A program made the position numbers and the translations under genes. A model generated the notes under the pieces. It was not told the DNA's origin, ran no database searches, and worked only from the letters and a program-made list of their open reading frames with translations. A stretch of 26,228 nucleotides of DNA from a virus: the IMG/VR virus record IMGVR_UViG_3300030388_000774, positions 1 through 26,228 of that record. One strand, 5' to 3'. Position 1 is the stretch's first letter. Each line of letters begins with the position of its first letter. Shown here one piece after another: positions 1,301-17,635 of the stretch.

Positions 1301-3698
1301 CATTAACTACAGCAGCAGCTTTCCAGATCAGGTGGTACCTGAAGAAGAGAAAAGTTCTTTCGAGTACGGCTTAAAAGTTGGTCAAGCTATCGAGCATGAG
1401 TGGTTTAGAAACAATACTGGTCAAAATAGATTTGTTGACAACTTTCAAAACTTTAATAGATTAAGACTTTACGCTAGAGGTGAACAGCCTGTACAAAAAT
1501 ATAAAGATGAAATGGCCATTAATGGTGATTTATCTTATTTAAACTTAGACTGGCAACCCGTACCAGTACTATCTAAGTTTGTAGACATAGTGGTTAATGG
1601 TATGACTGAAAGAGGTTATGAGATAAAATCATTTGCTACTGATCCTTTTGGTATTAAAACCAGAACTGACTATGCAACAGCTGCGCTAAGAGATATTAGA
1701 AATAAACAAGAAATTGCGCAATTGACTCAAGCAACAGGAAGAAATTATTATGCATCTTCAAGCCCAGAAGAATTACCTACTAATGCAGAAGAACTAGATC
1801 TTTACATGCAACTTAATTATAAGCAGTCTATAGAAATAGCTAGTGAAGAAGTTATAAGTAAAATTTTAGATTATAATAAATTTGATCAAGTAAAAAAACA
1901 AATTGCTTATGACTTAACTGTTTTAGGTATAGGAGCTTGTAAGACTAATTTTAATCTTTCAGAGGGAGTAACAACAGAATATGTTAATCCAGCAAACTTA
2001 GTATGGTCATATACAGAAGATCCAAATTTTGAAGATTTATATTATGTAGGTGAAGTAAGAAATTTATCTTTATCTGAAGTAAAACGACAATTTCCTAGTT
2101 TAAGTGATTCTGAATTAGAAAAAATACAAAAATACCCTGGTAGAAACTCATACACTAATACTATGTGGGGTCAAAATCAGCAAGATCAAGTACAAGTATT
2201 ATATTTTGAATATAAAACATACCACGATCAAGTATTTAAAATAAAACAAACAGAACAAGGTTTAGAAAAAGTAATAGAAAAACCTGACACGTTCAATCCT
2301 CCACCTAGTGATAATTTTGAAAGAGCAGCTAGATCTATTGAGGTTCTATATACTGGCGCTAAAGTTTTAGGACTTGGTGATACTATGCTAGAATGGAAAT
2401 TAGCAGAAAATATGACAAGGCCTAATGGTGATACTACTAAGGTTAATATGAATTATGTAATATCTGCTCCTAGAATGTATCAAGGTCGTATTGAATCTAT
2501 AGTTAGTAAAACAATTGGCTTTGCTGATATGATTCAAATAACTCATTTAAAATTACAACAAGTACTTGCTCGTATAGTTCCGGATGGTGTATATGTAGAT
2601 GTGGATGGTTTGGCAGAGGTTGACTTAGGTAATGGTACAAATTATAATGCATCAGAAGCATTAAACATGTACTTTCAAACTGGTAGTATTGTAGGTAGAT
2701 CATTAACTCAAGATGGTGAAGGAAATCCTGGTAAAGTTCCTATACAAGAATTACAAAGTTCTTCTGGTATATCAAAGATTCAATCAATGATACAAACATA
2801 TCAGTATTATCTTCAAATGATTAGAGATGTAACAGGATTAAATGAAGCTAGAGATGGAAGTACGCCAGATAAAGATGCATTAGTTGGTTTACAAAAATTA
2901 GCAGCGGCTAATTCAAATACAGCTACTAGACATATATTACAAGCACTTATGTATATGACTGTAAGAACTTGTGAGAATATAAGTTTAAGAGTTTCAGATA
3001 TGTTAAATTTTCCACTGACAAGAGACTCATTAGTAAAAAGTCTTAATAATTTTAACACAGCAACATTAGAAGAAGTAGAGCAATTAAATATACATGATTT
3101 TGGTATATTTTTAGAATTAGAACCTGATGAAGAAGAAAGAGCTCAATTAGAAAAAAGTATACAAGTTGCATTACAGTCAGGTAATATTGGTTTAGAAGAT
3201 GCGATAGATTTAAGAGAAATTTCTAATATTAAGTTAGCTAATCAAATGCTTAAGCAAAAACAAAAACAAAAAGCAGAAGCGGCAAGGCAAGCACAATTAG
3301 AAAATATAAGAGTTCAAGGTGAGGCAAACCAAAAAGCATCTGAAGCAGCTGCATTAGCAGAAATGCAAAAAGAACAAGCGGTTGCACAAACTAAAATACA
3401 GATAGAGCAAGCAAAAGCTCAATTTGAAATTGGAAGAATGGAAAAAGAAGCTATCATTAAAAAACAATTAATGGCAGAAGAATTTGAATATGCAATACAA
3501 CTTGCACAAGCAGAACAATCGCGCCAAACAAATAGAGAGTCAGAGATTGAAGATAGAAAAGACAAAAGAACAAAAATACAAGCAACACAACAAAGTGAAA
3601 TGATAAGTCAAAGACAAAATGACACTTTGCCTACTAATTTTGAATCACAGAACGATACGTTAGGTGGTTTTGGATTAGAACAATTTAATCCACAGTAG
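1293..3698 (+). CDS. Portal protein
   Basis: This encodes an 801-residue protein placed directly after the terminase, where the dodecameric DNA-entry ring is normally encoded. The start ATG lies inside the end of the terminase gene (ATGATTAA overlap) with no ribosome-binding purine block. The N-terminal part resembles large podoviral portals: an early region with paired aromatics and the segment WQPVPVLSKFVDIVVNGM (about residues 87-104), then a long mixed core. From about residue 648 to 760 the chain becomes a continuous Q/A/K/E-rich helix predicted to be a coiled coil, matching the long C-terminal barrel of P22-type portals. The extreme tail carries two NDTL repeats. Size is large for a portal but normal for crAss-like and P22-like ones. 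Identity rests on position, length and architecture. Confidence 0.87.
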   Translation: MININYSSSFPDQVVPEEEKSSFEYGLKVGQAIEHEWFRNNTGQNRFVDNFQNFNRLRLYARGEQPVQKYKDEMAINGDLSYLNLDWQPVPVLSKFVDIVVNGMTERGYEIKSFATDPFGIKTRTDYATAALRDIRNKQEIAQLTQATGRNYYASSSPEELPTNAEELDLYMQLNYKQSIEIASEEVISKILDYNKFDQVKKQIAYDLTVLGIGACKTNFNLSEGVTTEYVNPANLVWSYTEDPNFEDLYYVGEVRNLSLSEVKRQFPSLSDSELEKIQKYPGRNSYTNTMWGQNQQDQVQVLYFEYKTYHDQVFKIKQTEQGLEKVIEKPDTFNPPPSDNFERAARSIEVLYTGAKVLGLGDTMLEWKLAENMTRPNGDTTKVNMNYVISAPRMYQGRIESIVSKTIGFADMIQITHLKLQQVLARIVPDGVYVDVDGLAEVDLGNGTNYNASEALNMYFQTGSIVGRSLTQDGEGNPGKVPIQELQSSSGISKIQSMIQTYQYYLQMIRDVTGLNEARDGSTPDKDALVGLQKLAAANSNTATRHILQALMYMTVRTCENISLRVSDMLNFPLTRDSLVKSLNNFNTATLEEVEQLNIHDFGIFLELEPDEEERAQLEKSIQVALQSGNIGLEDAIDLREISNIKLANQMLKQKQKQKAEAARQAQLENIRVQGEANQKASEAAALAEMQKEQAVAQTKIQIEQAKAQFEIGRMEKEAIIKKQLMAEEFEYAIQLAQAEQSRQTNRESEIEDRKDKRTKIQATQQSEMISQRQNDTLPTNFESQNDTLGGFGLEQFNPQ

Positions 3699-3718
3699 TT
3701 TATTATTAATTTTATATT

Positions 3719-3729
3719 ATCATATTATG
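3719..3729 (+). promoter_or_regulatory. Start-codon leader ATCATATT before the scaffold gene
   Basis: This is the first copy of the ATCATATTATG start context that recurs at 6487-6497. It ends in the ATG of the scaffold candidate and lies in a 28-nt intergenic spacer with only one G or C (a single C). A role in translation is inferred from position only. Confidence 0.35.
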
Positions 3730-4959
3730 TCTAAAAAAGAAGAAGTAAAAGTAAAAGAAGTTGATACGCCTATAAAAAAAGAAGGTGAATTCAAAATAAA
3801 ATCAGCTAAAAAAATGAAAGATCTTGGCGAAGGACAAGGAGAACAAAAACTTCACAAGGTTGTTTTAACTAAAGAAAAAACAAAAGAAAATGCCATTTCA
3901 GACGGAGAAACAAAGAAAGTGGATGTGGGCGAACAAACCGGAGATAGCGGAAAAGTGGTCGAAGGATTACGGGTCGAAACCACTGAAGATGTTGCTGAAG
4001 AGCAAAAGGTAGACTCACCATTACAAGAAATAACTGATGAAGAAAATAACACTAACAAGGACGGAGTGGCAGCAAGCACTGATACTACCACTACCGCATC
4101 AGAACAAAAAGAAATACCAAAGGAAGTTGAAGCACAAAAACTACCTGACAATATAGATAAATTAGTTCAGTTCATGAAAGAAACTGGGGGTGATATACAC
4201 GATTACTCTCGTTTAAATGCTGACTATAGTAATGTAAATGACGAAATGCTTTTACATGAATATTACAAAAAAGCTAAACCACATCTTAACGGAGAAGAAA
4301 GAGGATTTATAATTGAAGACAATTTCAGTTATGATGAGGAATTAGATGAAGCAAGAGAAGTTCGAAAGAAAAAACTTGCATATAAAGAAGAAGTTGCAAA
4401 AGCCAAAGGCTTTTTGGAAGATCTTAAGAGTGAATATTACGAGGAAATCAAGTTGAGGCCCGGAGTATCTAAAGATCAAAAAGAAGCTACTGAATTTTTC
4501 AACCGATACCAGGAAGATAGAAAAGTAAATAAAGTACAACACGATTCGTTTAAGGCTAAGTCTAAAGAACTTTTTGACAAAGATTTCAAAGGTTTTGATT
4601 TTAATGTAGGAGATAAAAAATTTAGATATAACGTTAAAGACCCAGTTGCTGTTGCCGATAATCAAAGTGATATTTCAAATTTTATAGGAAAGTTTCTTAA
4701 TAAAAAAGGAGAAATGACTAAACACAAAGACTATCATAAAGCTTTATATACTGCACAAAATGCTGATACATTAGCTCAACATTTTTATGAACAAGGCAAA
4801 ACTGATGCGATAAAAAGTCAGATGGCTAGTTCTAAAAATATAAGTACAGAACCTCGCAAAACTGCTGATGGTAATATATTTGTAAATGGACTAAAAGTAA
4901 AAGCAATTAGTGGCCTTGATTCCACAAAGCTTAAAATAAAAAGAAAAACATTTAACTAA
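3727..4959 (+). CDS. Probable capsid scaffolding protein
   Basis: This is a 410-residue, highly charged protein between portal and capsid genes, the usual scaffold position. Residues 1 to about 135 are low-complexity (K/E, then D/E/T/S) and probably disordered. From about 138 a helical region begins (LPDNIDKLVQFMKETGG, then YSRLNADYSNVNDE), continuing into a long E/K-rich helix with AKAKGFLEDLKSEYYEEIKLRPG. The C-terminus is basic (about the last 20 residues, ending KLKIKRKTFN), consistent with a capsid-binding tail as in P22 and phi29 scaffolds. I recognise the central helical block as recurring before the capsid gene in related marine phages. No protease motif is seen. Codons in roughly 3900-4090 are more GC-rich than in the rest of the gene. 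An alternative is an internal or decoration protein. Confidence 0.68.
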   Translation: MSKKEEVKVKEVDTPIKKEGEFKIKSAKKMKDLGEGQGEQKLHKVVLTKEKTKENAISDGETKKVDVGEQTGDSGKVVEGLRVETTEDVAEEQKVDSPLQEITDEENNTNKDGVAASTDTTTTASEQKEIPKEVEAQKLPDNIDKLVQFMKETGGDIHDYSRLNADYSNVNDEMLLHEYYKKAKPHLNGEERGFIIEDNFSYDEELDEAREVRKKKLAYKEEVAKAKGFLEDLKSEYYEEIKLRPGVSKDQKEATEFFNRYQEDRKVNKVQHDSFKAKSKELFDKDFKGFDFNVGDKKFRYNVKDPVAVADNQSDISNFIGKFLNKKGEMTKHKDYHKALYTAQNADTLAQHFYEQGKTDAIKSQMASSKNISTEPRKTADGNIFVNGLKVKAISGLDSTKLKIKRKTFN

Positions 4960-4972
4960 AAAACAATAAATT

Positions 4973-6421
4973 ATGTCGATTTTTCCACAATTTGGTGCGA
5001 TAGTTCCTGCTCCTAACCAGCAACTATTAGCCAGCAATTACCTTCAGTTTAATACTGGTGGCGTAAATGATTTTGCGCAACAGTATTTACCAGAGGTTTA
5101 TGAACAAGAAGTAGAGCGTTATGGAAACAGAACGTTATCAGGCTTCTTAAGAATGGTAGGCGCAGAAATGCCTATGACTTCTGATCAAGTTATTTGGTCG
5201 GAACAAAACAGATTACACATAGCATACAATAACTGTGTAAGTGATCAAGTAAATGGAATTACTATCCCAGCTCCAACAGCCCCAGGTGTAACACGAAATG
5301 TTATAAGTCCGGGTCAAACTATCGTTGTATTAGATGGTTTAGGTAATGAAGCTAAGTGTGTTGTTACTGCTTCTAACACTGGAACTGGTGTTCTAGCTGT
5401 TGCACCATATTTATCTACTACACTTGCTCTTTTAGGACCTACAGTAAAAATATTTGTATATGGTTCTGAATTTGTTAAAGGTGCTGCTACTTCAAATGCA
5501 GGTGCTGGTGCTCTAGCAAATAACACGGCTATACAACCACAAGTAACAATTACTCCTACTTTTACTCAATTTTCTAACTCACCAGTTATAATTAGAAACG
5601 TTTACACAATAAACGGATCAGATATGGCTCAAATCGGTTGGGTTGAAGTTGCTACTGAAGACGGAACAAGCGGTTACTTATGGTATCTAAAAGCTGAATC
5701 TGAAACAAGATTACGTTTTGAAGACTACTTAGAAATGGTATGTGTTGAAGGTGATTTAGCAACTGCTGGTCTTGGTGCTGGTTCTGCTGTTAATGCTGGA
5801 TTCAAAGGTACTCAAGGTTTATTCTCTGCTATAAATACTAGAGGTAACGTTGAAGTTGGTTTTGATGCAGGTGCTGGTCTAGATGATTTTGATGAAATAC
5901 TTAAAAATCTTGATACTCAGGGAGCTATTGAAGAAAACATGTTATTCCTACAAAGAGGAGTTTCATTAGACTTTGACAATATGCTATCACTTGTATCAGC
6001 TGGATCACAAGGAGGTACTGCTTATGGATTATTTGAAAACTCTGAAGAAATGGCATTGAATCTAGGATTCAGTGGTTTCCGTAGAGGATCTTATGATTTT
6101 TATAAGACTGACTGGAAATACTTAAATGACGCTTCTACACGTGGTGCTCAAGCGGGTGTTTCTTCTATCGAAGGTGTTTTAATTCCTGCTGGAACTTCAA
6201 CAGTTTACGATCAGATCTTAGGTACTAATATCAGACGACCATTTTTACACGTTCGATACAGAGCTTCTCAAACAGAAGACAGACGTATGAAATCTTGGTT
6301 GACTGGTTCTGCTGGTGGTGCTATGACTTCAAATCTTGATGCTATGGAAGTAAATTTCCTATCTGAAAGATGTTTAGTTGTACAAGCTGCTAACAACTTC
6401 GTTTTATTCCAAGGAGTTTAA
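4973..6421 (+). CDS. Major capsid protein
   Basis: This 482-residue protein builds the icosahedral head, presumably with an HK97 fold. It follows the scaffold candidate and is followed by a strong hairpin, as is common for the most abundant virion protein. The N-terminus (about 20-85) contains YLPEVYEQEVERYGNRTLSGF and MVGAEMPMTSDQVIWSEQNRLHI, which I associate with capsid proteins of Bacteroidota and marine phages. A Gly/Ala/Val/Thr-rich beta segment at about 108-190 could be the E-loop region or an inserted domain. The C-terminal part includes arginine-rich SFRRGSYDFYKTDWKYL-type and ADQ-poor beta regions and closes with a hydrophobic strand ending in FQGV. The start has no Shine-Dalgarno sequence and sits in an AATAAATT leader. 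Fold assignment is inference. Confidence 0.86.
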   Translation: MSIFPQFGAIVPAPNQQLLASNYLQFNTGGVNDFAQQYLPEVYEQEVERYGNRTLSGFLRMVGAEMPMTSDQVIWSEQNRLHIAYNNCVSDQVNGITIPAPTAPGVTRNVISPGQTIVVLDGLGNEAKCVVTASNTGTGVLAVAPYLSTTLALLGPTVKIFVYGSEFVKGAATSNAGAGALANNTAIQPQVTITPTFTQFSNSPVIIRNVYTINGSDMAQIGWVEVATEDGTSGYLWYLKAESETRLRFEDYLEMVCVEGDLATAGLGAGSAVNAGFKGTQGLFSAINTRGNVEVGFDAGAGLDDFDEILKNLDTQGAIEENMLFLQRGVSLDFDNMLSLVSAGSQGGTAYGLFENSEEMALNLGFSGFRRGSYDFYKTDWKYLNDASTRGAQAGVSSIEGVLIPAGTSTVYDQILGTNIRRPFLHVRYRASQTEDRRMKSWLTGSAGGAMTSNLDAMEVNFLSERCLVVQAANNFVLFQGV

Positions 6422-6428
6422 TACTAAT

Positions 6429-6464
6429 GTAAAGTTATGGGGCATTAATTTGCCCCATCTTTAC
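6429..6464 (+). terminator. Hairpin after the capsid gene (terminator or mRNA 3'-end stabiliser)
   Basis: An inverted repeat starts 8 nt after the capsid stop. The stem pairs ATGGGGCA with TGCCCCAT around a six-base TTAATT loop, then after a small bulge GTAAAG pairs with CTTTAC. It is the most GC-rich short element in an AT-rich intergenic stretch. No clear U-tract follows, so it may be a weak terminator or an RNA stability or processing element. Confidence 0.65.
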
Positions 6465-6486
6465 TATTTACAAATTATTTAATTAT

Positions 6487-6497
6487 ATCATATTATG
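6487..6497 (+). promoter_or_regulatory. Start-codon leader ATCATATT shared with the scaffold gene
   Basis: The eleven bases ATCATATTATG, including the start codon, are identical to those at 3719-3729 before the scaffold gene, and the bases further upstream are similarly A/T-only. The match may be an unstructured leader that favours initiation without a Shine-Dalgarno sequence, or chance in AT-rich DNA. Confidence 0.35.
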
Positions 6498-7259
6498 AAA
6501 AAACAAAACAAAACTCAATCAGATGGTTGGGAAATTAAAGATAGAACATATCTTTTACAAGGTACGTTAACACCTTTAACTTATAGAATACCCTCAAAAC
6601 ATACTCAACGACAACCATTATTATGGTACGATGAGATGAAAAATGAGCAAAAAGAAATTAGATACGCTACAAATCAAAATTCACCATTTAAAGACGAACA
6701 AAAAGGTGAAGCAACTATGGGCCACATAGTATTTAATGATGGTGCTTTAACTGTTTTTAAAAAAAATCAAGTGCTACAAAAGATATTATCAATGTATCAT
6801 CCTTTGAAAAACATTAAATATAGAGAACTAGATGTTATTGAAGATGCTAAAGATGATTTAGAATTTTTAGAATTAGAAATAGATGCTTTAAACATTGCTA
6901 GAAATATTGATATTGATCAAGCTGAAGCTATATTAAGAGTTGAAATGGGATCTAAGGTATCAGAGATGAGTTCTAAGGAAATAAAAAGAGATTTACTTAT
7001 ATTTGCTAAGACAGATGCTACTTTATTCTTAAACTTAGCTAAAGATGATAATGTTCAACTTAGAAATTTTGCTATAAAAGCAACAGAAGCTGGAATAATA
7101 ATTTTAGCTGATGACCAAAGAACGTTTAAATGGAAATCTAATGGTAAAAAATTGATGACTGTTCCGTTTGATGAGCATCCATACTCTGCTATGGCACAAT
7201 TCTTTAAAACAGATGAAGGTTTAGAAGTATTTAAATCTATAGAGAAAAAGTTCTCTTAA
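6495..7259 (+). CDS. Structural-module protein of unknown function (254 aa)
   Basis: I do not recognise a characterised function. The protein sits alone between two hairpins, after the capsid gene and before the connector genes. Its N-terminal half has YLLQGTLTPLTYRIPSKHTQRQPLLWYDE and then IRYATNQNSPFKDEQKGEA (about 19-75), an arrangement I associate with conserved hypothetical proteins next to capsid genes in marine phages. The middle (about 110-150) is an acidic helix, ELDVIEDAKDDLEFLELEIDAL, and the C-terminal third is mixed alpha/beta, rich in Lys and Phe. No signal peptide, membrane span or enzyme motif is visible. It could be a minor capsid, decoration or assembly factor. The context of an isolated transcript segment suggests separately tuned expression. 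Confidence 0.75.
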   Translation: MKKQNKTQSDGWEIKDRTYLLQGTLTPLTYRIPSKHTQRQPLLWYDEMKNEQKEIRYATNQNSPFKDEQKGEATMGHIVFNDGALTVFKKNQVLQKILSMYHPLKNIKYRELDVIEDAKDDLEFLELEIDALNIARNIDIDQAEAILRVEMGSKVSEMSSKEIKRDLLIFAKTDATLFLNLAKDDNVQLRNFAIKATEAGIIILADDQRTFKWKSNGKKLMTVPFDEHPYSAMAQFFKTDEGLEVFKSIEKKFS

Positions 7260-7270
7260 CATGTAATACT

Positions 7271-7299
7271 AATAAGGGAGGTGTAATGCCTCCTTTATT
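7271..7299 (+). terminator. Hairpin after the 254-residue gene
   Basis: An 11-bp stem pairs AATAAGGGAGG with CCTCCTTTATT (one G-U pair) around a seven-base TGTAATG loop. It starts 11 nt after the stop of the upstream gene and ends 16 nt before the next ATG. The downstream arm ends in T-rich DNA but there is no long U-tract. GGGAGG lies in the stem about 30 nt from the next start, so it is unlikely to act as a ribosome-binding site. ATACTAAT precedes or overlaps the stem here and also precedes the hairpin at 6429. Confidence 0.65.
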
Positions 7300-7315
7300 A
7301 TAATAAAAACAACAA

Positions 7316-8095
7316 ATGGCTATAAACGTAAATACTGTATATCAAACAGTTTTATTAATATTAAATAAAGAACAACGTGGATATTTAACACCTACTGAGT
7401 TCAATAATATTGGTAATCAAGTACAACTTGAAATATTTGAAAGATATTTTGAAGATATGAATCAACAAATACGTGTGCCACAAACTGATACTGATTATGC
7501 TGATAGAGTAGAAAACATTGATGAAAAATTAGCTATATTTAAAACTACAGGTAATGCTGTGCCTGCCTCAACAGCTGACGGATTAACTCCATATTGGGTA
7601 TTACCTAGTGTAGATATATATGGAAATGATGTATCTTCTACATCTGATACTCCTTTTTACAGATTAGGTTCTGTACTTTATAATAATGAAATAATGTTAC
7701 AAAGAGTTGATCGCTCAGATTACTATCATATAGATAGATCTTTGTTAACTAAACCCACAAAAACTTATCCTGTATATTTATATGAGAATCAAAAATTATT
7801 TGTAAAACCAACTACTATAAATACTATTGGTGAAATACAAGTAGATTTTATTAGAAAACCTTTAACTCCTATTTGGGGCTTTACTGTAGGTTCTCTTGGT
7901 CAATATATATATAATTCACAAGATTTAACAACTAACAATACTACCGGTTCTGTTAATTTTGAAATTCATGAATCAGAACAAACAAGTTTAATAATAAATA
8001 TACTAATGTATGCTGGGATAATAATAAGAGATCCGCAAATAATAGCAGGAGCTTCACAAGAAATTGCTAAGCAAACAAATAACGAAAGAAGTTAA
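7316..8095 (+). CDS. Head-tail connector / ring protein (259 aa)
   Basis: This is probably one of the stacked ring proteins joining the portal to the short tail. The N-terminal segment NTVYQTVLLILNKEQRGYLTP, followed by EFNNIGNQVQLEIFERYFEDMN (residues 5 to about 48), is a signature I recognise from Bacteroidota podoviruses: a conserved NKEQRGYLTP..FN turn and then a helix ending in a YF.D motif. The remainder is beta-rich (FYRLGSVLYNN, YPVYLYENQKLFVKPTTI, IQVDFIRKPLTP), and a short helix near the C-terminus contains a hydrophobic IINILMYAGIIIRDP segment, which is probably buried and not membrane-spanning. The next gene starts after a 2-nt gap. Exact position in the ring stack cannot be told from sequence. 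Confidence 0.75.
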   Translation: MAINVNTVYQTVLLILNKEQRGYLTPTEFNNIGNQVQLEIFERYFEDMNQQIRVPQTDTDYADRVENIDEKLAIFKTTGNAVPASTADGLTPYWVLPSVDIYGNDVSSTSDTPFYRLGSVLYNNEIMLQRVDRSDYYHIDRSLLTKPTKTYPVYLYENQKLFVKPTTINTIGEIQVDFIRKPLTPIWGFTVGSLGQYIYNSQDLTTNNTTGSVNFEIHESEQTSLIINILMYAGIIIRDPQIIAGASQEIAKQTNNERS

Positions 8096-8097
8096 TT

Positions 8098-9348
8098 ATG
8101 GCATATCCAACAACACCAAACGGTGGTTTAACAACAGAAACTAACGCTCAATATTATGCTGGTACACAAATAATCCAAGCAGTTGATGCAAGTGTAGGCG
8201 TAGGTCAAACTATATTTAAAACTACATTTAATACTAGTTTAACTTTTGGTTCTCCAGACCCAACAAGCGCATTATATAATGATAATAATTTTAGATTATA
8301 TACTAGTGCTACAGGTGCTACAGGAAGTTTTGCAGAGTTTGTTGGAGCTTATACTGTTAGCAACAATAATATAACTTTTGGTGCTAGTGTTGCTTCTGGA
8401 ACTTATGTTGTAATACAATTATTAAGTAAAAGCGGAGGTAATTTTGGAAACAAAGATGCCTATGGTACTACTGTTGAAGAAAACTATAATAGTTATTCTT
8501 CTATAAAAGTAATTGATTTAGTAAATAATTTTTTAGTTGCATATGTAGGCGCTAATAAATTAATACCTAGTGTTAAAAAAACAGATGTAATCTTTCACAC
8601 AAAAAGAGCGTTGCAAGAATTTAGTTATGATACATTAAGAAGTATACATTCTCAAGAACTTACAATACCTTTTAGTCTTAGCTTACCGTTACCACAAGAT
8701 TATGTTAATTATGTTAACGTTTCATGGATTGATAGTGTTGGTGTTAAGCATATAATATATCCTACTACTCTTACATCTAATCCTTATACAAAGCCTATAC
8801 AAGATGCCCAAGGAGTTCCAATTCAAACTAGTGATGGAGAAAATGTAACTGGTACATCTATAACTGAAGAAAGATGGGCTGCACAAAATACAGCAACTAT
8901 TGAAGCTATACGAGATGATATTACTGGAAGATTAGTAGCTGATGGTTTATGGGGTATTTATGGTAATGGTTTATTTGGTTATGGTCAAAGATATGGCATG
9001 CAGCCTGAATTAGCTCAAATAAACGGGTGGTTTACTATAAATGAAAGAGAAGGAAGCATGTCTTTTTCTAGTGATTTAAAAGATAAAATAATTATATTAG
9101 AATACATATCAGATGGATTATCCTATGATCAAGATATGAGAGTGCCAAAGTTAGCTGAAGAAGCTGTCTATGCTTATGTAATGCATGCTGTGTTAGCTAG
9201 TAGGATAAATCAACCTGAATACGTTATTCAAAGATTAAAAAGAGAAAAAAGTGCAAAACTAAGAAATGCAAAAATAAGATTATCTAATATTAAATCTAGT
9301 GAATTTGTTCAGATCATGAGAGGTAAATCTAAATGGCTTAAATACTAA
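8098..9348 (+). CDS. Head-tail connector / ring protein (416 aa) with N-terminal beta domain
   Basis: This is a second connector-type structural protein, directly after the first. Residues about 136-215 carry a recognisable core: a helix with VIDLVNNFLVAYVGANKLIPSVKKTD, then VIFHTKRALQEFSYDTLRSIHSQELT and LPLPQDYVNYVNVSW. I associate this block with structural proteins in Bacteroidota and other marine phages, where it forms a head-completion or tail-ring fold. Ahead of it, residues about 21-113 form a Thr/Ser/Gly-rich segment with alternating hydrophobics (FRLYTSATGATGSFAEFVG, NNITFGASVASGTYVVIQLL) that looks like an appended beta-sandwich. The C-terminus is basic and ends KSKWLKY. It may interface with the stabilisation protein encoded 5 nt downstream. 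Confidence 0.74.
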   Translation: MAYPTTPNGGLTTETNAQYYAGTQIIQAVDASVGVGQTIFKTTFNTSLTFGSPDPTSALYNDNNFRLYTSATGATGSFAEFVGAYTVSNNNITFGASVASGTYVVIQLLSKSGGNFGNKDAYGTTVEENYNSYSSIKVIDLVNNFLVAYVGANKLIPSVKKTDVIFHTKRALQEFSYDTLRSIHSQELTIPFSLSLPLPQDYVNYVNVSWIDSVGVKHIIYPTTLTSNPYTKPIQDAQGVPIQTSDGENVTGTSITEERWAAQNTATIEAIRDDITGRLVADGLWGIYGNGLFGYGQRYGMQPELAQINGWFTINEREGSMSFSSDLKDKIIILEYISDGLSYDQDMRVPKLAEEAVYAYVMHAVLASRINQPEYVIQRLKREKSAKLRNAKIRLSNIKSSEFVQIMRGKSKWLKY

Positions 9349-9353
9349 ACTAA

Positions 9354-12300
9354 ATGGCAGAAGTTAAAAATGCTTTTATAAAATCCAAAATGAACAGAGA
9401 CCTGGATGCCAGGTTATTACCAAATGGTGAGTATCGTGAAGGAATTAATATACAAGTAAGTAGATCAGAGGGTGCCGACGTTGGAGCGTTAGAAAATGTA
9501 TTAGGTAATGAACAACTTGTAGACTTCAAAGTAAGTAGTGGATGTAATTGTTTATTAAAAACTATAGGAACATTTACCGACGGAGTTTCTAATGATATAT
9601 ATGTTTTTTTAACTGATTACACTGATCTAACTTTTGAAACAGCTATTACTTATAATAAAGATGCATTTAATTTTATATATGTTTATAATATATTAAATAA
9701 AGAATCTTCTATATTAACAAGTGGAGCATACTTAAATTTTTCAGCAACAAATCCTATTTTAAATGTTAATTTTTTAGAAGGCATTTTATTTTGGACTGAT
9801 AATAGAAATCAACCTAGAAAATTAAATATAAATAGAGCAATAGCTAACGCAACCAGTCAAGTATCTAATGGTTATTATGTAACTGAAGATCAAATATCTG
9901 TAGCTACATATAATCCTTATGAACCAATACAACTTTTTTTTAAGCAGTGGGGTTCAGTAACTGTAGGAAGCACAGCTGTTGTTGCTAGTGTTAATATAAC
10001 TATAAACAAAGATACTTTAATTGGACTACCTACTATAGGTGCTACGGTTGGTAATGGTACTGTTACCGCTGACAACCCTAGTGCTGGTTTAACCTCACCA
10101 TTTCCTGTAATAACAGAATATAACCCTATAACAGGAGTACTAACTCTTAACAGTGCAGTGTCAATTCCCGCAAGTGCACAATTAAAATTCTTTGTTTCAA
10201 GTAATTTCTTAGATGAAAATCCAACAAATTTTTCTAGTATGTTTGATGCTACTAGTAGATTATGTCCTGATGAACTTACACCAAATCCAACTTTTCAAAC
10301 TCAAGGACCTTTAACAGCTACATCTAAAACTAATTATCCTGGTGATCCTGATTTTTTAGAAGATAAATTTGTAAGATTTAGTTATAGATTTAAGTTTGAT
10401 GATGGAGAAAATTCAATATTTGCACCTTTTACTCAGTCTGCTTTTATAACAAAACAAGATGGTTATTTTTTAAGACCAACAACGCCAACTGGTAATACAA
10501 AAGATGAAAATGCAACATATAGAAGCACGGTTGTTCCTTTTATGGAAAATCAAGTTAACAATATTTTAATTCAAATTCCGTTACCTTGTGCTGCTAAAGA
10601 TCTATACGATGAATATAAAATAATAGAAATAGATATTTTATATAAAGAATCAGATGCATTGGCTGTTCAAGTTGTAGATACAATTAAAGTAGAAAGCTTT
10701 TCTAATGCTACTTTTGTAGACCCATTAATAATATATAATTATCAAGGTGTTAAACCTTACAAAACATTACCAACAGCAGATTTAATAAGAGTTTATGACA
10801 AAGTACCTGTAAAAGCTCATGGTCAAGACATAATAAGCAATAGAATAGTTTATAGTAATTTCCAAACACAACACACTCCACCACAATCATTAAATTATAA
10901 TGTTGGTGTAACAGCAAAAAGTACTTTTGATATTAGCACTACAACTACAGGTGGCTTACCACAACCTGCAACATATTATACAAGTGAAGTAGAATATCCA
11001 CATCACACCGTTAAACAAAATAGAAATTATCAGGTAGGAGTTTTGTTATCTGATAAATTTGGTAGAACTTCTACTGTAATATTATCATCAACTGTTGTTC
11101 AAGAATCTAAAGATGGTCAATCTTATGGAGGTTCTACTGTTTATGTTCCTTATGCGCCAGATTTAGGCGCAGGAAATAACAATATAAATACATGGAATGG
11201 TGATTCTATAAAAGTATTATTTAATCAAGCTATAGGAACTACAGGTTTATATGCTGGTGCTCCTGATTTATTAACAGGTTGGAATGGTTTATACAATGGA
11301 GATGAAACAAGTGTTAATTATAATCCCTTAGGTTGGTATTCTTATAAAATTGTTGTTAAACAACAAGAACAAGATTATTATAATGTATATTTACCAGGTA
11401 TTGTTAATGGTTATCCTGGAGATGTAGTAGGACCATTTCCTGATCCAGACAACACTATTGCGTTTATAACATTAATAAATGATAACATAAACAAAGTACC
11501 TAGAGATTTAAATGAAGTTGGACCATTACAAACTCAATTTAGAAGTTCTGAAGATATGTTTGGTAGAGTTACACCTGAACAAACAGCATTAGATGTATCA
11601 CCTACTTTTAATAATCCTTACTACCCAACAATAGAACCTAATGTTGTTAACACTATAGGTCCAGAAAATACATTATTAGATTCTACAGCTGTTTTTTCAG
11701 AAGTTTATCAAACAGGCACTAATCCTTTGGTTGGTAGAGTTTCTCAAACAATTGAAACATTAAGTACTGGTATTGGAACCGGCGCTATTGGAGCTGGTCC
11801 TGTAGATTCTGGGGATGCATACAACATATTATTAGGTATATATGAAACCTCGCCAGTTGAATCAAACTTAGAAATATTCTGGGAAACATCATCAGCGGGA
11901 CTTATATCAGATTTAAATTTAGCTATAGAAGAAGGTGGATCACCTGGCATAAAAGGTGTAACTTCAGATGGTGTTTCAACAACTTGGACATATTCTCAAA
12001 GTGAAGCCGATCCTTCAGGTAGTATTATTGTAGCTGCATTTCTTCCATATACTCAACCTAATCCTTTTTCATCTACCATAACACCAGTAGTTGCTTCAAC
12101 TATAACTAATTCTTGGGTCACAGATGGACTTGGCAACACTAGGACAAGTGATTTTGAAATAGTGCCTATAGCCGGAAGTAGCCCATCAGCATACAATTTA
12201 AGAACCACTAGAGACTTCTATTTTGGAAATAATGCTTCTGTATTAGAAAATTTTACTTTCTTCTTTGAAATATATGACGTTGCTACCGATTTGCAAAGTG

Positions 12301-14453
12301 TGGTTTCAGCAACTGGTTTTTTAACTAATACAGCACCTATAATAACAAACTGTGTGGCTATTGTAGATTTACCAGAAAGTGCTACAACTTTTAAAACTTT
12401 TCTAGCCACAAACGGTAGTGCTGATAGCACTGGTATACCACCTGCTAATGTTAAAGACTTAACTTTTTCTAAAACATCTCAAGATCCTGCATTACCTTTA
12501 GTTAGTATTGATCCAAATAGCGGTGTATTAACAGAACCTACCGGTTCTTTGAATGGAGGATTAACAGTAACTATTAAAGTTGAAGATGCTTCAGGTGCTC
12601 AAGGTTCTTTATCTGCATCATGTACTACTACTTTTAATGGTAGTCAAGGTATAGTTACTAATTCTACTAATACACGTTGGTATAATGGTAATTTTTTAAA
12701 TATTAATCAAGGACCACAATCTTCTGGTTTTTATTGGAGTACAAATTTAACAAACGAAGTGGCTTCAACTCCACTGCCTGGAGGTTCAACAAGTTTTAGA
12801 GCACCAGTAAATAATCAACCTATACCTAGTGATACTATAGGCGCGACAGGAGTAAGTACTGCTACTGTAGATGCCCAAGGTGATTGTGGAGGCGGAACTG
12901 GTCTTAATAATAGTTGGATATGGACTAATACTAATAGAAATTCTTTAGCATTTTCAACTGCAAATATTAATCCAAAAGGTTTAACAACAGGTACTGCTTA
13001 TATAATGTTAGATTTTGAAAATAAAGTTACTAAAAATGGTGCTCCACAAAGTGATAAACCTTCTTTAATATGGCCAACTTATTTACAATATAGAAATCCT
13101 GTTGGCGCAGGTTATCCTGACAATTGGGAAGATGCTGTTGATGTTGAAGGAGCAACAATAAAATTTGGAGGGGCTCAAACAAACAATTATAGTATATCTC
13201 TTAATTCTACTAGACCAGACTTTACAGAAACAGGTGTGACTGATCAAGCTGCAACAAGTATTTCTCCTGTAGACAATGAATATACAGCTACAGACGGTAT
13301 GGAATCACAATCAACAGGACGCGCAAATAGTGGTGATGTACCTCTTTTTTCACAAAGTTCTAGAATATTTGTTTTTGGTAAAGATCAAGGTTATAATGTT
13401 AGAGCTGATTACTTTGGTGACTACAGATTAGTAGTAAGGTATCCTTACGGAAATAATATACCTAATAGTTTAACTAGTTTTGGTAATAAAATAATACCTG
13501 TATTAACGCCTCAAGGATGTCCTAGTCAACAAGGTGGCTCAGCACCATTATCTCCATATGCTTCGTATGCTTCAAGTTTAGATACTCAATTAGTTCAATT
13601 AAGTTATGGAGATTTCTATAATCCTTTATTAGATGGCACTCCTCCTAGTTATTTTAGTTATAGAATAAGTTCTCAAGGATCCGCAGATAAAGAAAATGCT
13701 AAATCATTTGTACCATCTCAAATAGTATATGCTAGAGAATGGTCATTTAGATATGTTACACAGCTTTATAATGATCCAGAGCTTAGTAGTTTATATAATA
13801 ACACTACAAACTTATCTTTTTATTCATATTCATCTTCAGAAGATAATTCATTAAATGGTAAATATGGAAATGAAATGTCTAATACTACTAACACCGCATT
13901 AACCGGCAGCGATAGAGCTCCAGTCGGATCTGCTTCAAATGAAAACAGAAGATGGGTTGCACAATTTGATGGTGGTGGTAAAAAAATGGCGCAAACAGCA
14001 GAGCCTGTTACTTATGATCAAGAAAATGTTGCTCCAGTTATAACTCCTCCAACTGGTTCTCTCCAATTAAATACTTTTGGATCCGGACCTTATCCACAAA
14101 TAATAAATAATGTCTCTGGAGATAGTGTTACTATCATTTGGTTAGGTGGAGCTAGTCAAACAATATTTGGATCTACATTAACTACTAATCTAACAAATGG
14201 ACTAGGTGGAGAAACACCAGCACCTTTTGTTGGGGCATTTTTAAAGTTCTATTCTCCAGATCAAAATACTGGGTTTGCAGAAGTAAGTGTAGTAAGTTTA
14301 AATAGAAACTCTAATATATCTAATGTATCATACATATATGAAAACACATCGGGTACCGTTATAGTGAGTATTACAAACGCACAAAACCTAATTTCTGGTG
14401 GAGGTAGTACTGGTAATTTACCTTCTAGTAATTACTACTACGATTTCAACTAG
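9354..14453 (+). CDS. Tail stabilisation / muzzle-type protein, N-terminal part with large insert (1699 aa)
   Basis: This very large virion protein probably forms the distal short tail. The first 52 residues (IKSKMNRDLDARLLPNGEYR, INIQVSRSEGADVGALENVLGN) are the hallmark of the family annotated as stabilisation or structural protein in Bacteroidota podoviruses and in several marine phages, analogous in place to P22 gp10 and the crAss-phage muzzle. Further family-like segments occur near residues 550-580 (NRNYQVGVLLSDKFGRTSTV) and 662-690 (YSYKIVVKQQEQDYYNVYLPG). From about 750 onward the chain is Ser/Thr/Gly/Asn-rich and beta-like, with a cadherin/Ig-like stretch at about 993-1096 (starts NTAPIITNC; contains SIDPNSGVL and VTIKVEDASG). 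It contains no catalytic motif I can identify. The usual C-terminal family segment is missing here and is found in the next gene. Confidence 0.78.
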   Translation: MAEVKNAFIKSKMNRDLDARLLPNGEYREGINIQVSRSEGADVGALENVLGNEQLVDFKVSSGCNCLLKTIGTFTDGVSNDIYVFLTDYTDLTFETAITYNKDAFNFIYVYNILNKESSILTSGAYLNFSATNPILNVNFLEGILFWTDNRNQPRKLNINRAIANATSQVSNGYYVTEDQISVATYNPYEPIQLFFKQWGSVTVGSTAVVASVNITINKDTLIGLPTIGATVGNGTVTADNPSAGLTSPFPVITEYNPITGVLTLNSAVSIPASAQLKFFVSSNFLDENPTNFSSMFDATSRLCPDELTPNPTFQTQGPLTATSKTNYPGDPDFLEDKFVRFSYRFKFDDGENSIFAPFTQSAFITKQDGYFLRPTTPTGNTKDENATYRSTVVPFMENQVNNILIQIPLPCAAKDLYDEYKIIEIDILYKESDALAVQVVDTIKVESFSNATFVDPLIIYNYQGVKPYKTLPTADLIRVYDKVPVKAHGQDIISNRIVYSNFQTQHTPPQSLNYNVGVTAKSTFDISTTTTGGLPQPATYYTSEVEYPHHTVKQNRNYQVGVLLSDKFGRTSTVILSSTVVQESKDGQSYGGSTVYVPYAPDLGAGNNNINTWNGDSIKVLFNQAIGTTGLYAGAPDLLTGWNGLYNGDETSVNYNPLGWYSYKIVVKQQEQDYYNVYLPGIVNGYPGDVVGPFPDPDNTIAFITLINDNINKVPRDLNEVGPLQTQFRSSEDMFGRVTPEQTALDVSPTFNNPYYPTIEPNVVNTIGPENTLLDSTAVFSEVYQTGTNPLVGRVSQTIETLSTGIGTGAIGAGPVDSGDAYNILLGIYETSPVESNLEIFWETSSAGLISDLNLAIEEGGSPGIKGVTSDGVSTTWTYSQSEADPSGSIIVAAFLPYTQPNPFSSTITPVVASTITNSWVTDGLGNTRTSDFEIVPIAGSSPSAYNLRTTRDFYFGNNASVLENFTFFFEIYDVATDLQSVVSATGFLTNTAPIITNCVAIVDLPESATTFKTFLATNGSADSTGIPPANVKDLTFSKTSQDPALPLVSIDPNSGVLTEPTGSLNGGLTVTIKVEDASGAQGSLSASCTTTFNGSQGIVTNSTNTRWYNGNFLNINQGPQSSGFYWSTNLTNEVASTPLPGGSTSFRAPVNNQPIPSDTIGATGVSTATVDAQGDCGGGTGLNNSWIWTNTNRNSLAFSTANINPKGLTTGTAYIMLDFENKVTKNGAPQSDKPSLIWPTYLQYRNPVGAGYPDNWEDAVDVEGATIKFGGAQTNNYSISLNSTRPDFTETGVTDQAATSISPVDNEYTATDGMESQSTGRANSGDVPLFSQSSRIFVFGKDQGYNVRADYFGDYRLVVRYPYGNNIPNSLTSFGNKIIPVLTPQGCPSQQGGSAPLSPYASYASSLDTQLVQLSYGDFYNPLLDGTPPSYFSYRISSQGSADKENAKSFVPSQIVYAREWSFRYVTQLYNDPELSSLYNNTTNLSFYSYSSSEDNSLNGKYGNEMSNTTNTALTGSDRAPVGSASNENRRWVAQFDGGGKKMAQTAEPVTYDQENVAPVITPPTGSLQLNTFGSGPYPQIINNVSGDSVTIIWLGGASQTIFGSTLTTNLTNGLGGETPAPFVGAFLKFYSPDQNTGFAEVSVVSLNRNSNISNVSYIYENTSGTVIVSITNAQNLISGGGSTGNLPSSNYYYDFN

Positions 14454-14477
14454 TAATTCATTCAATAAATAAGTGAT

Positions 14478-14488
14478 AATAAATTATG
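14478..14488 (+). promoter_or_regulatory. AATAAATTATG start context, shared with the capsid gene
   Basis: AATAAATT plus the start codon is identical to 4965-4975 before the major capsid gene. It lies in the 32-nt gap between the two halves of the stabilisation system and gives the downstream half its own initiation site in a different reading frame. It may be simple AT-rich coincidence. Confidence 0.35.
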
Positions 14489-15991
14489 GCAGCATTAATA
14501 GAAGTTAAGTATTATAATAGTTTTATTTTACGTAAAACCCTGAATTCAGGAGGCACAGCTGCGTGGAATGGTTCAAGAGGAAATAATACTTATCCTAAGA
14601 CAGCTGTATCTAATGATAAAAACTGGGCTGTAGAAGAATCACGCATAAGAGGTGGTTACAATAACACTCAAACAGGTTATGGAGTAAAAGCATATATAGT
14701 AGATGATAACCCAAATGCTTCTACAAGAGTTAATTCTCTTATATATTCTGGAATATTTAACGCGAGAACAGGTATAAATAATACAAATGTGTTTTCTGTA
14801 GGAGAAGACATAACTAAAAGTGTTGATCCTATAAATGGATCTATACAAAAAATATTTGCTGAAGATACTCAATTAATTATATTTCAAGAAAAAAAAGTTA
14901 GTAGAGCTCCAATAGATAAAGATTTAATATATTCAGCTGAAGGGAATACAACATTAACATCTAGCAACGCTGTGATAGGTACTATTAATCCTTATACAGG
15001 TAATTTTGGTATAAGTAAAAACCCAGAAAGTTTTGCTGTATATGCTAATAGAAAATACTTTACTGATAAAGATAGAAATGCTGTATTAAGACTTTCTAAT
15101 GATGGACTAACAGAAATATCTAATTATGGTATGATTGATTTCTTTAGAGATGAATTTGGTCAATTAGAAGGTGGTAAATTAATAGGTGGGTATGATATAT
15201 ATAATAAACAATACTCATTATCTATTCAACCAACTTACACAGGATTACAATCTGGACAACCTTTTAAAACATTAGTATTTGATGAAGTTATAAACGGATG
15301 GTCTAGTTTCTTTTCCTACAACCCTTCATCTATGTTAAGTTTGAAAAGTGATTATTACAGTGCTGGACCATCATTAAGTTCTGATGACGGAGGATTTACT
15401 GGCGCTAAAGGACCAAACACAGCTGGTTTATATCAACATTATATATCTACTGTACCAAGATGTCAGTTTTATGGCTTAAACAATAAATCTAGTGTAGAAT
15501 TTATATTCAATCCTAAGGTAAGTGCATCTAAAGTTTTTAAAACAATAAACTATGAGGGTAGTAATGGATGGCAAGTAGATAGTTTTGTATCTGATTTTAC
15601 AGGTATAGGTTATCCTAATTCTGATATTGATAATTATAATATTACAAACACTAATGATACTACTACTTTAGTATATAGTTATAATGAAAGTACTTATGAT
15701 TCTGTAGGTAATACATTTGCTGATATAACATCTATACCTATAACTCAAAACACAATTTCTTTAGTACCACCATTATTTCATGCTGGTTTTACTAGAAAAG
15801 AAAACAAGTACATGGCTAATTTAGTCAATGATAGTATAGCTGCTCCTGGTGAAATTATATTTGGTGACAAAATGACAGGTATAAAAGGTTATTTTGCTAC
15901 AGTTAAAATGTCTACTGATACTTTAACAGATCCTGGAGGTCCAAAAGAATTGTTTGCGGCGTCATCTGACTATGTTTCGTCTGCTTATTAA
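14486..15991 (+). CDS. Stabilisation-family protein, C-terminal half (501 aa)
   Basis: This protein appears to be the portion normally found at the C-terminal end of the same stabilisation family. It opens with EVKYYNSFILRKTL, corresponding to the YYN.(Y/F) segment that precedes an ESRIR motif in single-chain homologues, and has NWAVEESRIRGGYN at about 47-60. It continues with the ordered family blocks LIYSGIFNARTGINNTN, DPINGSIQKIFAEDTQLIIFQ and KVSRAPIDKDLIYSAEG, then GISKNPESFAVYANRKYFTDKDRNAVLRLSNDGLTEIS (split here only by description) near 170-225. The pattern suggests a beta-propeller-like repeat fold. The first residue is set by ATG at 14486 in an AATAAATT leader, 32 nt after the previous stop and in another frame. 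It probably assembles with the product of 9354-14453. Confidence 0.78.
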   Translation: MAALIEVKYYNSFILRKTLNSGGTAAWNGSRGNNTYPKTAVSNDKNWAVEESRIRGGYNNTQTGYGVKAYIVDDNPNASTRVNSLIYSGIFNARTGINNTNVFSVGEDITKSVDPINGSIQKIFAEDTQLIIFQEKKVSRAPIDKDLIYSAEGNTTLTSSNAVIGTINPYTGNFGISKNPESFAVYANRKYFTDKDRNAVLRLSNDGLTEISNYGMIDFFRDEFGQLEGGKLIGGYDIYNKQYSLSIQPTYTGLQSGQPFKTLVFDEVINGWSSFFSYNPSSMLSLKSDYYSAGPSLSSDDGGFTGAKGPNTAGLYQHYISTVPRCQFYGLNNKSSVEFIFNPKVSASKVFKTINYEGSNGWQVDSFVSDFTGIGYPNSDIDNYNITNTNDTTTLVYSYNESTYDSVGNTFADITSIPITQNTISLVPPLFHAGFTRKENKYMANLVNDSIAAPGEIIFGDKMTGIKGYFATVKMSTDTLTDPGGPKELFAASSDYVSSAY

Positions 15992-16001
15992 ATTAAATTA
16001 A

Positions 16002-16502
16002 ATGAACATAACAGAAAAAGAAAATGTTATTTTAGATAAAATAGAAGACATTAAAAAGTTTAGAAAAAACATAATGACTTTTGAAGAACAAATGCTTAAT
16101 TTACCTAATTCATATCAAGGTCAAGAAGAATGTGATAAAATAAATCCATTACAACATAGCTTTGTTGATGGTTTGTATCAAAGAAAAATATTCACTCCAA
16201 AAGGCCAAGTATTCACAACAGGTATTCATAAAAAAGAGCACGTATTTTTTTTAATGAAAGGAGATTTATCTATTTTATCAGAAGATGGCATACAAAGAAT
16301 TAAAGCGCCTTTTAATGGTATAACTAAACCAGGTACAAAAAGAGTTGTTTATGTACATGAAGACACTATTTGGATAACAGTGCACGCAACAGATAAAAAA
16401 ACAGTTGAAGAAGCTGTAGAAGATATAATAGCAAAGGATTTTGATGATCCTTTAGTAAGTATAAATAATATGAGAAAACACTTAAAAATTAAAAACGTAT
16501 GA
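16002..16502 (+). CDS. Cupin-like small protein (166 aa)
   Basis: The middle of this protein looks like a single cupin beta-barrel: YQRKIFTPKGQVFTTGIHKKEHVFFLMKG (in two pieces, about 59-87), then DLSILSEDG, and a second set of strands PFNGITKPGTKRVVYVHED and TIWITVHATD (about 103-131). Possible ligands are His76, Glu79, His80, His119 and His128. The first histidine pair is H-x3-H, not the canonical H-x-H, so metal binding is uncertain. The N-terminal 50 residues are a charged helix, and the C-terminal 30 are acidic, then basic. Proteins of this type occur within structural modules of marine phages with unknown role. The stop overlaps the next start as ATGA, so the genes are probably translationally coupled. 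Confidence 0.7.
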   Translation: MNITEKENVILDKIEDIKKFRKNIMTFEEQMLNLPNSYQGQEECDKINPLQHSFVDGLYQRKIFTPKGQVFTTGIHKKEHVFFLMKGDLSILSEDGIQRIKAPFNGITKPGTKRVVYVHEDTIWITVHATDKKTVEEAVEDIIAKDFDDPLVSINNMRKHLKIKNV

Positions 16503-17635
16503 GCTCACTTATAGGAGGTACGGTTGGACTAGTAATTGGAGTTTCAGCAGCTGTTGGTGCGGCCTCAACTCTTGTGTCAACAGGAGTAGGTATGTATTCA
16601 GCTACTAAAAATAAAAAAAATGCAGCTAGAGCAGCGGCTGGTTTTCAGGGTGAAATTGATTATTTAGAAGATAATAGAGTTGAAATAACAAATCCTTATG
16701 CAGGTTTAGAAGATCTTTCAGGCATGATGACTGATTTGTCTGGTTTAAAAACTGATTTGTCAGATATGGCTAGTGATTTATCTGGTATGATAACTGACAC
16801 TAGTGGTGGTTTATCTAATCCTATGCAAAATCTTGGTGTTGCAACTGCAGCTGCTGAAATGCAAGCTGAAGAAGCTGATATAGCTTTAGCAAACACATTA
16901 GACATGTTACAAGCTACAGGTTCTTCTGCTGGTGGTGCTACAGCTTTAGCTCAAGCCGCTCTTTCTAGTAAAAAAGGTATTGCAGCTAATATTCAACAAC
17001 AAGAAAAAGCTAACGCAGATGCTGCTGCGGCAGGTGAGATGAAAGTGCAAACTCAAAAAATGCAAGCTAAAAACAGAGTACAAGATGCTGCTGTAAGAGG
17101 CGGAGAAAGATTACAAGGATTAAAAATGGCAGGAGCTAGAAGAGTAGAAGATGCTGAATTTGATTCTGCTACAAAAATGCAAGAGTTTGGCATAACTGAA
17201 GCTAATAGAATACAACAAGCTGGAGTGTCCGGTGAATTATTTATGTATCAAGAGCAAGACAGAAGAGATCAACAAGAATTAAATAGACTAGCATCTCAAT
17301 TAACAGGCCAACAACAAGTGCAAGCACAAGCTAGTGCAGACTACATTGGGGCAATTGCTGGTGGTGTGGCTGGACTTGGAGAGGTTGTTGGTGGAGTTGG
17401 TAAAGCTGTGATAGCAGGTTCAGATAGAAGATTAAAAAATAATATAAAATTAATAAGTAAATCACCTAGTGGTTTAAACATATATTCTTTTGAATATATA
17501 AACAAAGAATTTGGTAAAGGTACTTTTCAAGGAGTTATGTCAGATGAAATATCACAACATGCTGTTATTAAAAATAAGGATGGTTATGATATGGTTGATT
17601 ATTCTAAATTAGATGTAGAATTTAAAAATATTTAA
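16499..17635 (+). CDS. Internal/ejection-type membrane protein with C-terminal S74 chaperone domain (378 aa)
   Basis: The product has three visible parts. Residues about 3-33 are a Gly/Ala/Val-rich hydrophobic segment able to span a membrane, as in T7 gp14-like internal virion proteins. Residues 72-106 are five 7-residue repeats of the type DLSGMMT, followed by a long Ala/Gln-rich helical stretch to about 275 (coiled-coil-like, with QQQEKAN and QQQVQAQA). After a second Gly-rich hydrophobic segment (about 282-306), the last 71 residues match the intramolecular chaperone domain (Peptidase S74): SDRRLKNNIK beginning at residue 308, IYSFEY, FQGVMSDEI. Ser308 and Lys313 fit the Ser-Lys autocleavage dyad known from endosialidase K1F, predicting release of a 71-residue C-terminal piece. 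Its start overlaps the cupin gene by 4 nt. It could instead be a tail-fibre attachment protein. Confidence 0.75.
   Translation: MSSLIGGTVGLVIGVSAAVGAASTLVSTGVGMYSATKNKKNAARAAAGFQGEIDYLEDNRVEITNPYAGLEDLSGMMTDLSGLKTDLSDMASDLSGMITDTSGGLSNPMQNLGVATAAAEMQAEEADIALANTLDMLQATGSSAGGATALAQAALSSKKGIAANIQQQEKANADAAAAGEMKVQTQKMQAKNRVQDAAVRGGERLQGLKMAGARRVEDAEFDSATKMQEFGITEANRIQQAGVSGELFMYQEQDRRDQQELNRLASQLTGQQQVQAQASADYIGAIAGGVAGLGEVVGGVGKAVIAGSDRRLKNNIKLISKSPSGLNIYSFEYINKEFGKGTFQGVMSDEISQHAVIKNKDGYDMVDYSKLDVEFKNI
16712..16816 (+). repeat. Five 21-nt / 7-residue tandem repeats
   Basis: Within the 378-residue protein, residues 72-106 read as five successive heptads: DLSGMMT, DLSGLKT, DLSDMAS, DLSGMIT and DTSGGLS. 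At DNA level the units begin GATCTTTCA, GATTTGTCT, GATTTGTCA, GATTTATCT and GACACTAGT, so the repeat is diverged in codons while conserved in protein. Hydrophobic residues recur every seven positions, which suits a coiled coil or beta-solenoid. Confidence 0.8.

Follow-up and report, generated by a model that had tools for sequence, protein, structure and literature searches.

A crassvirus-type muzzle protein divided between two genes at an enlarged loop in a clade of aquatic crass-like phages

Gene layout and family assignment

In crassvirus-type tails, the muzzle is the gate that retains DNA and cargo proteins, and it is thought to touch the host. The window analyzed here, the whole 26,228-base stretch of a virus record, carries its virion genes as a block running in one direction (plus strand for all features given below). 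Within this block, two adjacent genes encode the N- and C-terminal parts of one crassvirus muzzle protein: gene 1 (9354..14453, 1699 aa) is the N-terminal chain and gene 2 (14486..15991, 501 aa) the C-terminal chain. The muzzle family was defined here as PHROG 14478 and Pfam PF25731/PF25729. In a profile search, both genes matched opposite ends of PHROG 14478 (1474 positions), gene 1 residues 4-195 aligning with profile positions 1-180 (E 4.6e-48) and gene 2 with positions 944-1222 (E 7.2e-47). The N-terminal family signature occupies gene 1 residues 13-52, and at the other end the crAss_MUZ_C domain lies at gene 2 residues 325-446 (15458..15823; Pfam PF25729, 48.3 bits against a cut-off of 27).

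The genomic position is also that of a muzzle, as gene 1 directly follows, on its 3' side, the ring-type virion protein gene at 8098..9348 (PHROG 13977, E 8.5e-34), and the order of ring protein then muzzle recurs in phi38:1 and crAss001. A single polypeptide, which is usual though not strictly defining for the family, is replaced by two genes in the window's clade. The closest cultured homologues, at about 31-33% identity over the matched parts, are gp097 of phi38:1 (Cellulophaga phage; Callevirus, Pervagoviridae; 1324 aa) and an Elemovirus structural protein (1470 aa), which, unlike the window, are each one chain with a short loop at the cut site; both isolates are listed outside Crassvirales. 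Against the phi38:1 muzzle, gene 1 shows 33% identity to residues 1-176 and 30% to residues 192-397. Further downstream in the window, the product of 16499-17635 gives a sub-threshold match at its C-terminus to Peptidase_S74, an endosialidase chaperone domain (E 0.013).

The junction is a conserved gene boundary

The boundary between the two genes reads as the first-pass annotation had described it, with the same coordinates and signatures: gene 1 ends ...YYYDFN-TAG at 14453, a 32-nt gap follows (14454..14485) with an A/T-rich leader, AATAAATAAGTGATAATAAATT, and gene 2 opens with an ATG at 14486 in another frame. Scanning IMG/VR with gene 2 returned 80 loci at 42-84% identity, and the split is present in all 79 of these closest relatives that have a readable boundary, the remaining locus (L077) having a gene 2 that is itself broken. 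Throughout the 79, gene 2 is a separate ORF with an ATG start, and the preceding ORF stops 2-40 nt ahead of it; the two genes stand in relative frame 0, 1 and 2 in 28, 26 and 25 relatives, respectively, the upstream stop is TAA in 67, TAG in 10 and TGA in 2, and the A/T-rich stretch ahead of the ATG is alike among close relatives. Purifying selection acts on both genes (dN/dS about 0.14-0.16 for gene 2, 0.18-0.20 for the gene 1 body and 0.19-0.35 for its extension), and gene 2 is the most conserved part of the muzzle.

The conserved boundary, the use of all three frames and the purifying selection together exclude frameshift, readthrough and sequencing error as general explanations. A sequencing or assembly frameshift that mimics a split, an error that does occur in this family (the Panino record; L169, which is broken where its near-twin L168 is whole), has a negligible chance of explaining 79 of 79 relatives from many samples with a stop, a gap, a new ATG and three frames, both genes being constrained; the first-pass annotation's case of a sequencing error, correction of which would join the two frames, is thereby ruled out. 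Programmed frameshifting, readthrough or other recoding that sometimes joins the genes into a minority full-length muzzle would suit their adjacency, mostly within 40 nt, yet it is very improbable, as the relative frame is random among relatives, three stop codons are used, and the halves at a second cut site (described below) have genes between them, so that joining is not general. In one contig only, L075 (3728-8665), gene 1 is broken by two more in-frame stops, TAA and TGA.

The split marks one clade and is derived

Two further scans enlarged the sample to 241 classed loci, including some duplicates; 179 are split at the gene 1/gene 2 site and 62 are not. Trees built with FastTree placed 103 dereplicated split members in one clade, with a local support of 0.66 in the gene 2 core tree, 0.94 in the tree of the upstream ring-type protein, which served as an independent marker, and 0.98 in the combined tree; the sister clade (0.98 in the combined tree) is single-chain, bar a broken or cut member or two. 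Five split cases fall outside this clade. Panino and L169 are apparent frameshifts, L223 has a broken N-terminus, L214 is cut elsewhere, and L188 has the same loop cut independently, about 45 residues earlier, its place among single-chain relatives coming from one tree, that of the gene 2 core. In the record of Maribacter phage Panino (L082, PP540027.1), the annotated muzzle is cut by its apparent frameshift at 9150-9330, within the propeller, and homology resumes in another frame.

At the gene 1/gene 2 site, the muzzle is a single chain in phi38:1, Calle_1, Elemovirus, ctfjg026, crAss001 and the other Crassvirales genomes examined, in line with the first-pass annotation, which had homologues elsewhere carrying both parts on one chain. 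Residues 1-580 of gene 1 and 48-370 of gene 2 were placed by tblastn on single structural proteins of phi38:1 and of Calle_1. These one-chain outgroups make the split a derived state. The first-pass annotation had named two separate genes in all related phages as a point against its reading; this applies by half, since the whole clade is split, which is thus not a peculiarity of the window, whereas the outgroups are single-chain. A single split, in an ancestor shared by a large clade of aquatic, uncultured crass-like phages, is the probable origin. Among GTDB genomes, a first scan gave no match and a profile scan gave ten contigs, mostly from MAGs, with binning too loose to name a host.

Predicted place of the cut in the muzzle fold

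The nozzle of T7, gp12, is a single chain that has neither crass nor IG domains. The propeller and ring-joining domains of crAss001 gp44 resemble this nozzle, and gp44 is a hexameric muzzle protein of five domains, the chain of which runs through propeller blades 1-2, IG1 (163-292), the start of blade 3 and IG2 (318-1021), with crass segments inserted in IG2 at 453-904 and 940-1012, and then through the rest of the propeller (PMC10172136). The ring-joining part was located on gp44 from the position of Pfam MUZ_C. Like the window, gp44 has the N-terminal signature region, the propeller core and the C-terminal domain in this order and directly follows the ring protein gene; unlike the window, it is one chain of 1371 aa with neither a large G-H insert nor a gene boundary. 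Length variation in the IG2 and crass insertions has been described (PMC10172136).

Gene 1 residues 1-191 (9354..9926) correspond to the start of the beta-propeller, matching gp44 1-150 by blastp (E 2.6e-4) and gp44 1-160 with the single-chain profile, and gene 2 aligned with gp44 1006-1306 by hhalign (probability 97.2, E 4.7e-11). In a hand alignment of several Crassvirales muzzles, KYYNSF of gene 2 equals RYDCLRTF of gp44 (about 946) and VEESRIRGGYN equals CESKVNIDGRYD (about 973). The exact cut residue, at about gp44 940-946, rests on this hand alignment, and hhalign moves the strands on either side about 35-50 residues further along, which leaves them within the G-H segment (gp44 940-1012). 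The hhalign comparison of the gene 1 crass/extension profile with gp44 gave nothing useful, and PDB sequence searches returned no muzzle match for gene 1, gene 2 or the gene 2 profile.

On this map, the cut would fall inside domain IG2, and both chains should contribute to the propeller and likewise to IG2, which argues for an obligate 1:1 pair and against a detachable tip. By homology, the distal crass domain is on gene 1, and gene 2 provides the end of IG2, the remaining propeller blades and the ring-joining part; with the body on gene 2 and the distal domain on gene 1, a separate exchange of gene 2 or a change in its copy number is unlikely. The first-pass annotation had suggested that the distal part was perhaps made exchangeable or changed in copy number. 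On a reading of this kind, gene 2 would have become a structural protein in its own right, present in a number of its own, and the tip would be formed by gene 1 only. Separate genes can in principle differ in expression, but this proposal is improbable given the order propeller - IG2/crass - propeller, in which neither half holds a whole propeller or a whole IG2, and given that conservation is highest in gene 2.

An added extension in the loop that is cut

Within gene 1, the conserved IG2/crass-domain part (residues 497-850, 10842..11903), delimited by a conservation profile over 97 relatives and a motif scan, is closed by the strand motif YETSPVESNLEIFWE (residues 830-844, nt 11841-11885), which is found in most family members. 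The distance from this motif to the gene 2 core, which counts about 67 residues of gene 2 plus the gap, measures 46-51 aa for 25 dereplicated single chains and 128-166 aa for another six; it is 161 aa in L188 and 453-1083 aa in the split clade. The extension therefore occupies the very loop in which the cut falls, and the cut comes at the end of the extension. The window's extension covers gene 1 residues 851-1699 (11904..14450), about 850 residues where about 900 rich in Ser, Thr and Gly had been noted at first, and these three residues make up 32.5% of it versus 24.4% of the remaining gene 1. In freshwater-type members, gene 1 measures about 1135-1220 aa, which means that extensions far shorter than the window's occur. 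Nine dereplicated single chains have an N-to-C distance of 1221-1816 aa, matching the length of the split clade, and thus a big extension does not by itself require a split; in the long single chains in which the motif was found, most of this distance precedes it.

The extension appears beta-rich and is possibly adhesin-like. A family profile weakly matched PDB cadherin chains at gene 1 residues of about 960-1098 (12231..12647; best E 1.3e-4), and single-sequence Pfam searches gave no adhesin-family match in the window's extension and matches in at most one of 42 relatives per family, none strong. The first-pass annotation was right that a stretch of this kind, possibly adhesin-like, had been added just ahead of the split; the loop has about 450-1080 aa in the split clade.

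Replacement of the gene 1 C-terminus between close relatives

Conservation of gene 1 across the 97 relatives extends to about residue 850 and gives way to variability beyond; just 13-36% of them have anything corresponding to its last 150 residues, so that the C-terminal tip (residues 1551-1699, 14004..14450; occupancy 0.13-0.36) belongs to a minority. Four close pairs (L004/L005, L016/L057, L015/L040 and L059/L065) share 90-96% identity in gene 2, against 26-43% over the 200 residues that end gene 1. For L004/L005, identity is 96% in gene 2, about 90% in the gene 1 body and 26-30% in the last 200 residues, and at the nucleotide level it climbs from 33-40% to 83% over the final 60 nt, reaching 100% where gene 2 starts. 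Between close pairs in general, DNA similarity returns only in the last 60-120 nt ahead of gene 2. For L018/L040, about 2.3 kb of near-100% identical DNA lies over the extension versus about 90-98% in most stretches upstream. In the window and its nearest relatives, the gene 1 end is only mildly more variable.

The exchangeable piece is thus the C-terminal end of gene 1. Of the exchangeable distal part envisaged at first, this replaced end remains, but the cut itself frees no distal part, as the crass domain is on gene 1. No phage pair had gene 1 ends more than 10 points more alike than their bodies, and no ends common to unlike bodies were found; the comparisons as a whole establish replacement of the end and not its transfer between distant phages.

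A second cut site in the propeller

Ten loci have the muzzle cut within the propeller instead, and a scan with the downstream half of this type returned 80 loci, 75 of them carrying this second cut (second-site loci: L084, L172, L196, L210, L215, L233, L238, L263, L264 and L265-L344). The group includes podovirus ctfjg026, an Aquimarina longa SW024 scaffold and many aquatic contigs. As in the window, there are two genes with sequence added to the end of the upstream half; unlike the window, the cut is in the propeller (about gp44 1196), the downstream half has about 245-340 aa, and genes often lie between. The upstream half carries 88-1310 extra residues past its core in all but one locus, and 0.2-3.6 kb separate the halves in most. 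In the examples examined, the intervening genes usually belong to a family starting YYLDGPSLS..AADGFYSDG. Past the muzzle core, the upstream half of L264 matches Big_9, Cadherin_4 and Cadherin_5 and that of L210 matches He_PIG, all of them domains of adhesin type and above Pfam cut-offs. In the ring-protein tree, the second-site loci are intermixed with single-chain loci, which suggests several origins or losses.

Two further features were seen among these loci. At the end of the L172 upstream half (2447-6985), the stretch YINIYFDSSGSMNS resembles a von Willebrand factor A motif, for which Pfam reported no match. Between the muzzle halves of L292 and L320 lies a gene (6112-7335 and 5663-6895, respectively) that starts SIYVQIASYRDPEL.PTLHSL, and we take this start to resemble that of a glycosyltransferase.

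Proposed origin and assembly of the two-chain muzzle

The split muzzle is a new form of a known protein; it is clade-wide, its position in the fold is clear, and a few term combinations tried against open-licence papers found no earlier description of it. The explanation we consider probable is that one muzzle was split at a grown IG2 loop into co-assembling chains with a replaceable gene 1 end. The loop (gp44 G-H segment, residues 940-1012) would first have gained several hundred beta-rich, adhesin-like residues, after which a stop and a new start appeared at the end of the insert. The adjacent genes would be translated separately and their chains would have to reunite. Gene 1 would supply the opening blades of the propeller and IG1, along with most of IG2, the crass domain and the extension; from gene 2 would come the final portion of IG2, the other propeller blades with the gate among them, and the ring-joining end. 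Six copies of such a 1:1 pair would make up the tip. No longer returning into the fold, the extension would form a C-terminal tail of gene 1 with an end that can be replaced, the likeliest reason being contact with the host surface.

A neutral origin, in which a stop and restart arose by chance in a surface loop and persisted because the halves can still come together, the extension gaining nothing from it, shares this anatomy and differs in cause, so the two are not exclusive. Surface loops tolerate cuts, and single chains too carry long extensions; such an origin is nevertheless rather unlikely in view of the recurrence of cutting (L188 in the same loop, the second site in several lineages) and of the extra sequence that the upstream half, where checked, nearly always carries past its core. 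A broader reading joins both sites to the probable single-clade explanation: muzzle cutting may be a repeated solution in aquatic crass-like phages, turning a loop into a free end for replaceable adhesin modules and leaving the gate conserved, with the second site receiving whole adhesin genes. We hold this reading tentatively, somewhat short of an even chance.

A natural two-chain muzzle shows which place in the protein can bear a cut and points to the probable region of host contact; it also offers a direct way to test how binding at the tip opens the gate. For annotation, in the split clade and the second-site group alike, the C-terminal half is easily logged as a separate unknown structural protein.

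Family muzzle genes were also seen on bacterial-isolate scaffolds of Aquimarina algiphila (L262, 168 kb) and A. longa SW024 (L264, 837 kb), and those on such long scaffolds may represent integrated or persisting crass-like phages. In a set of eight loci (L179, L189, L190, L195, L209, L213, L231 and L237), some single-chain muzzles have several hundred to about 1000 extra C-terminal residues, and others have a gene of 300-1380 aa directly downstream of the muzzle.
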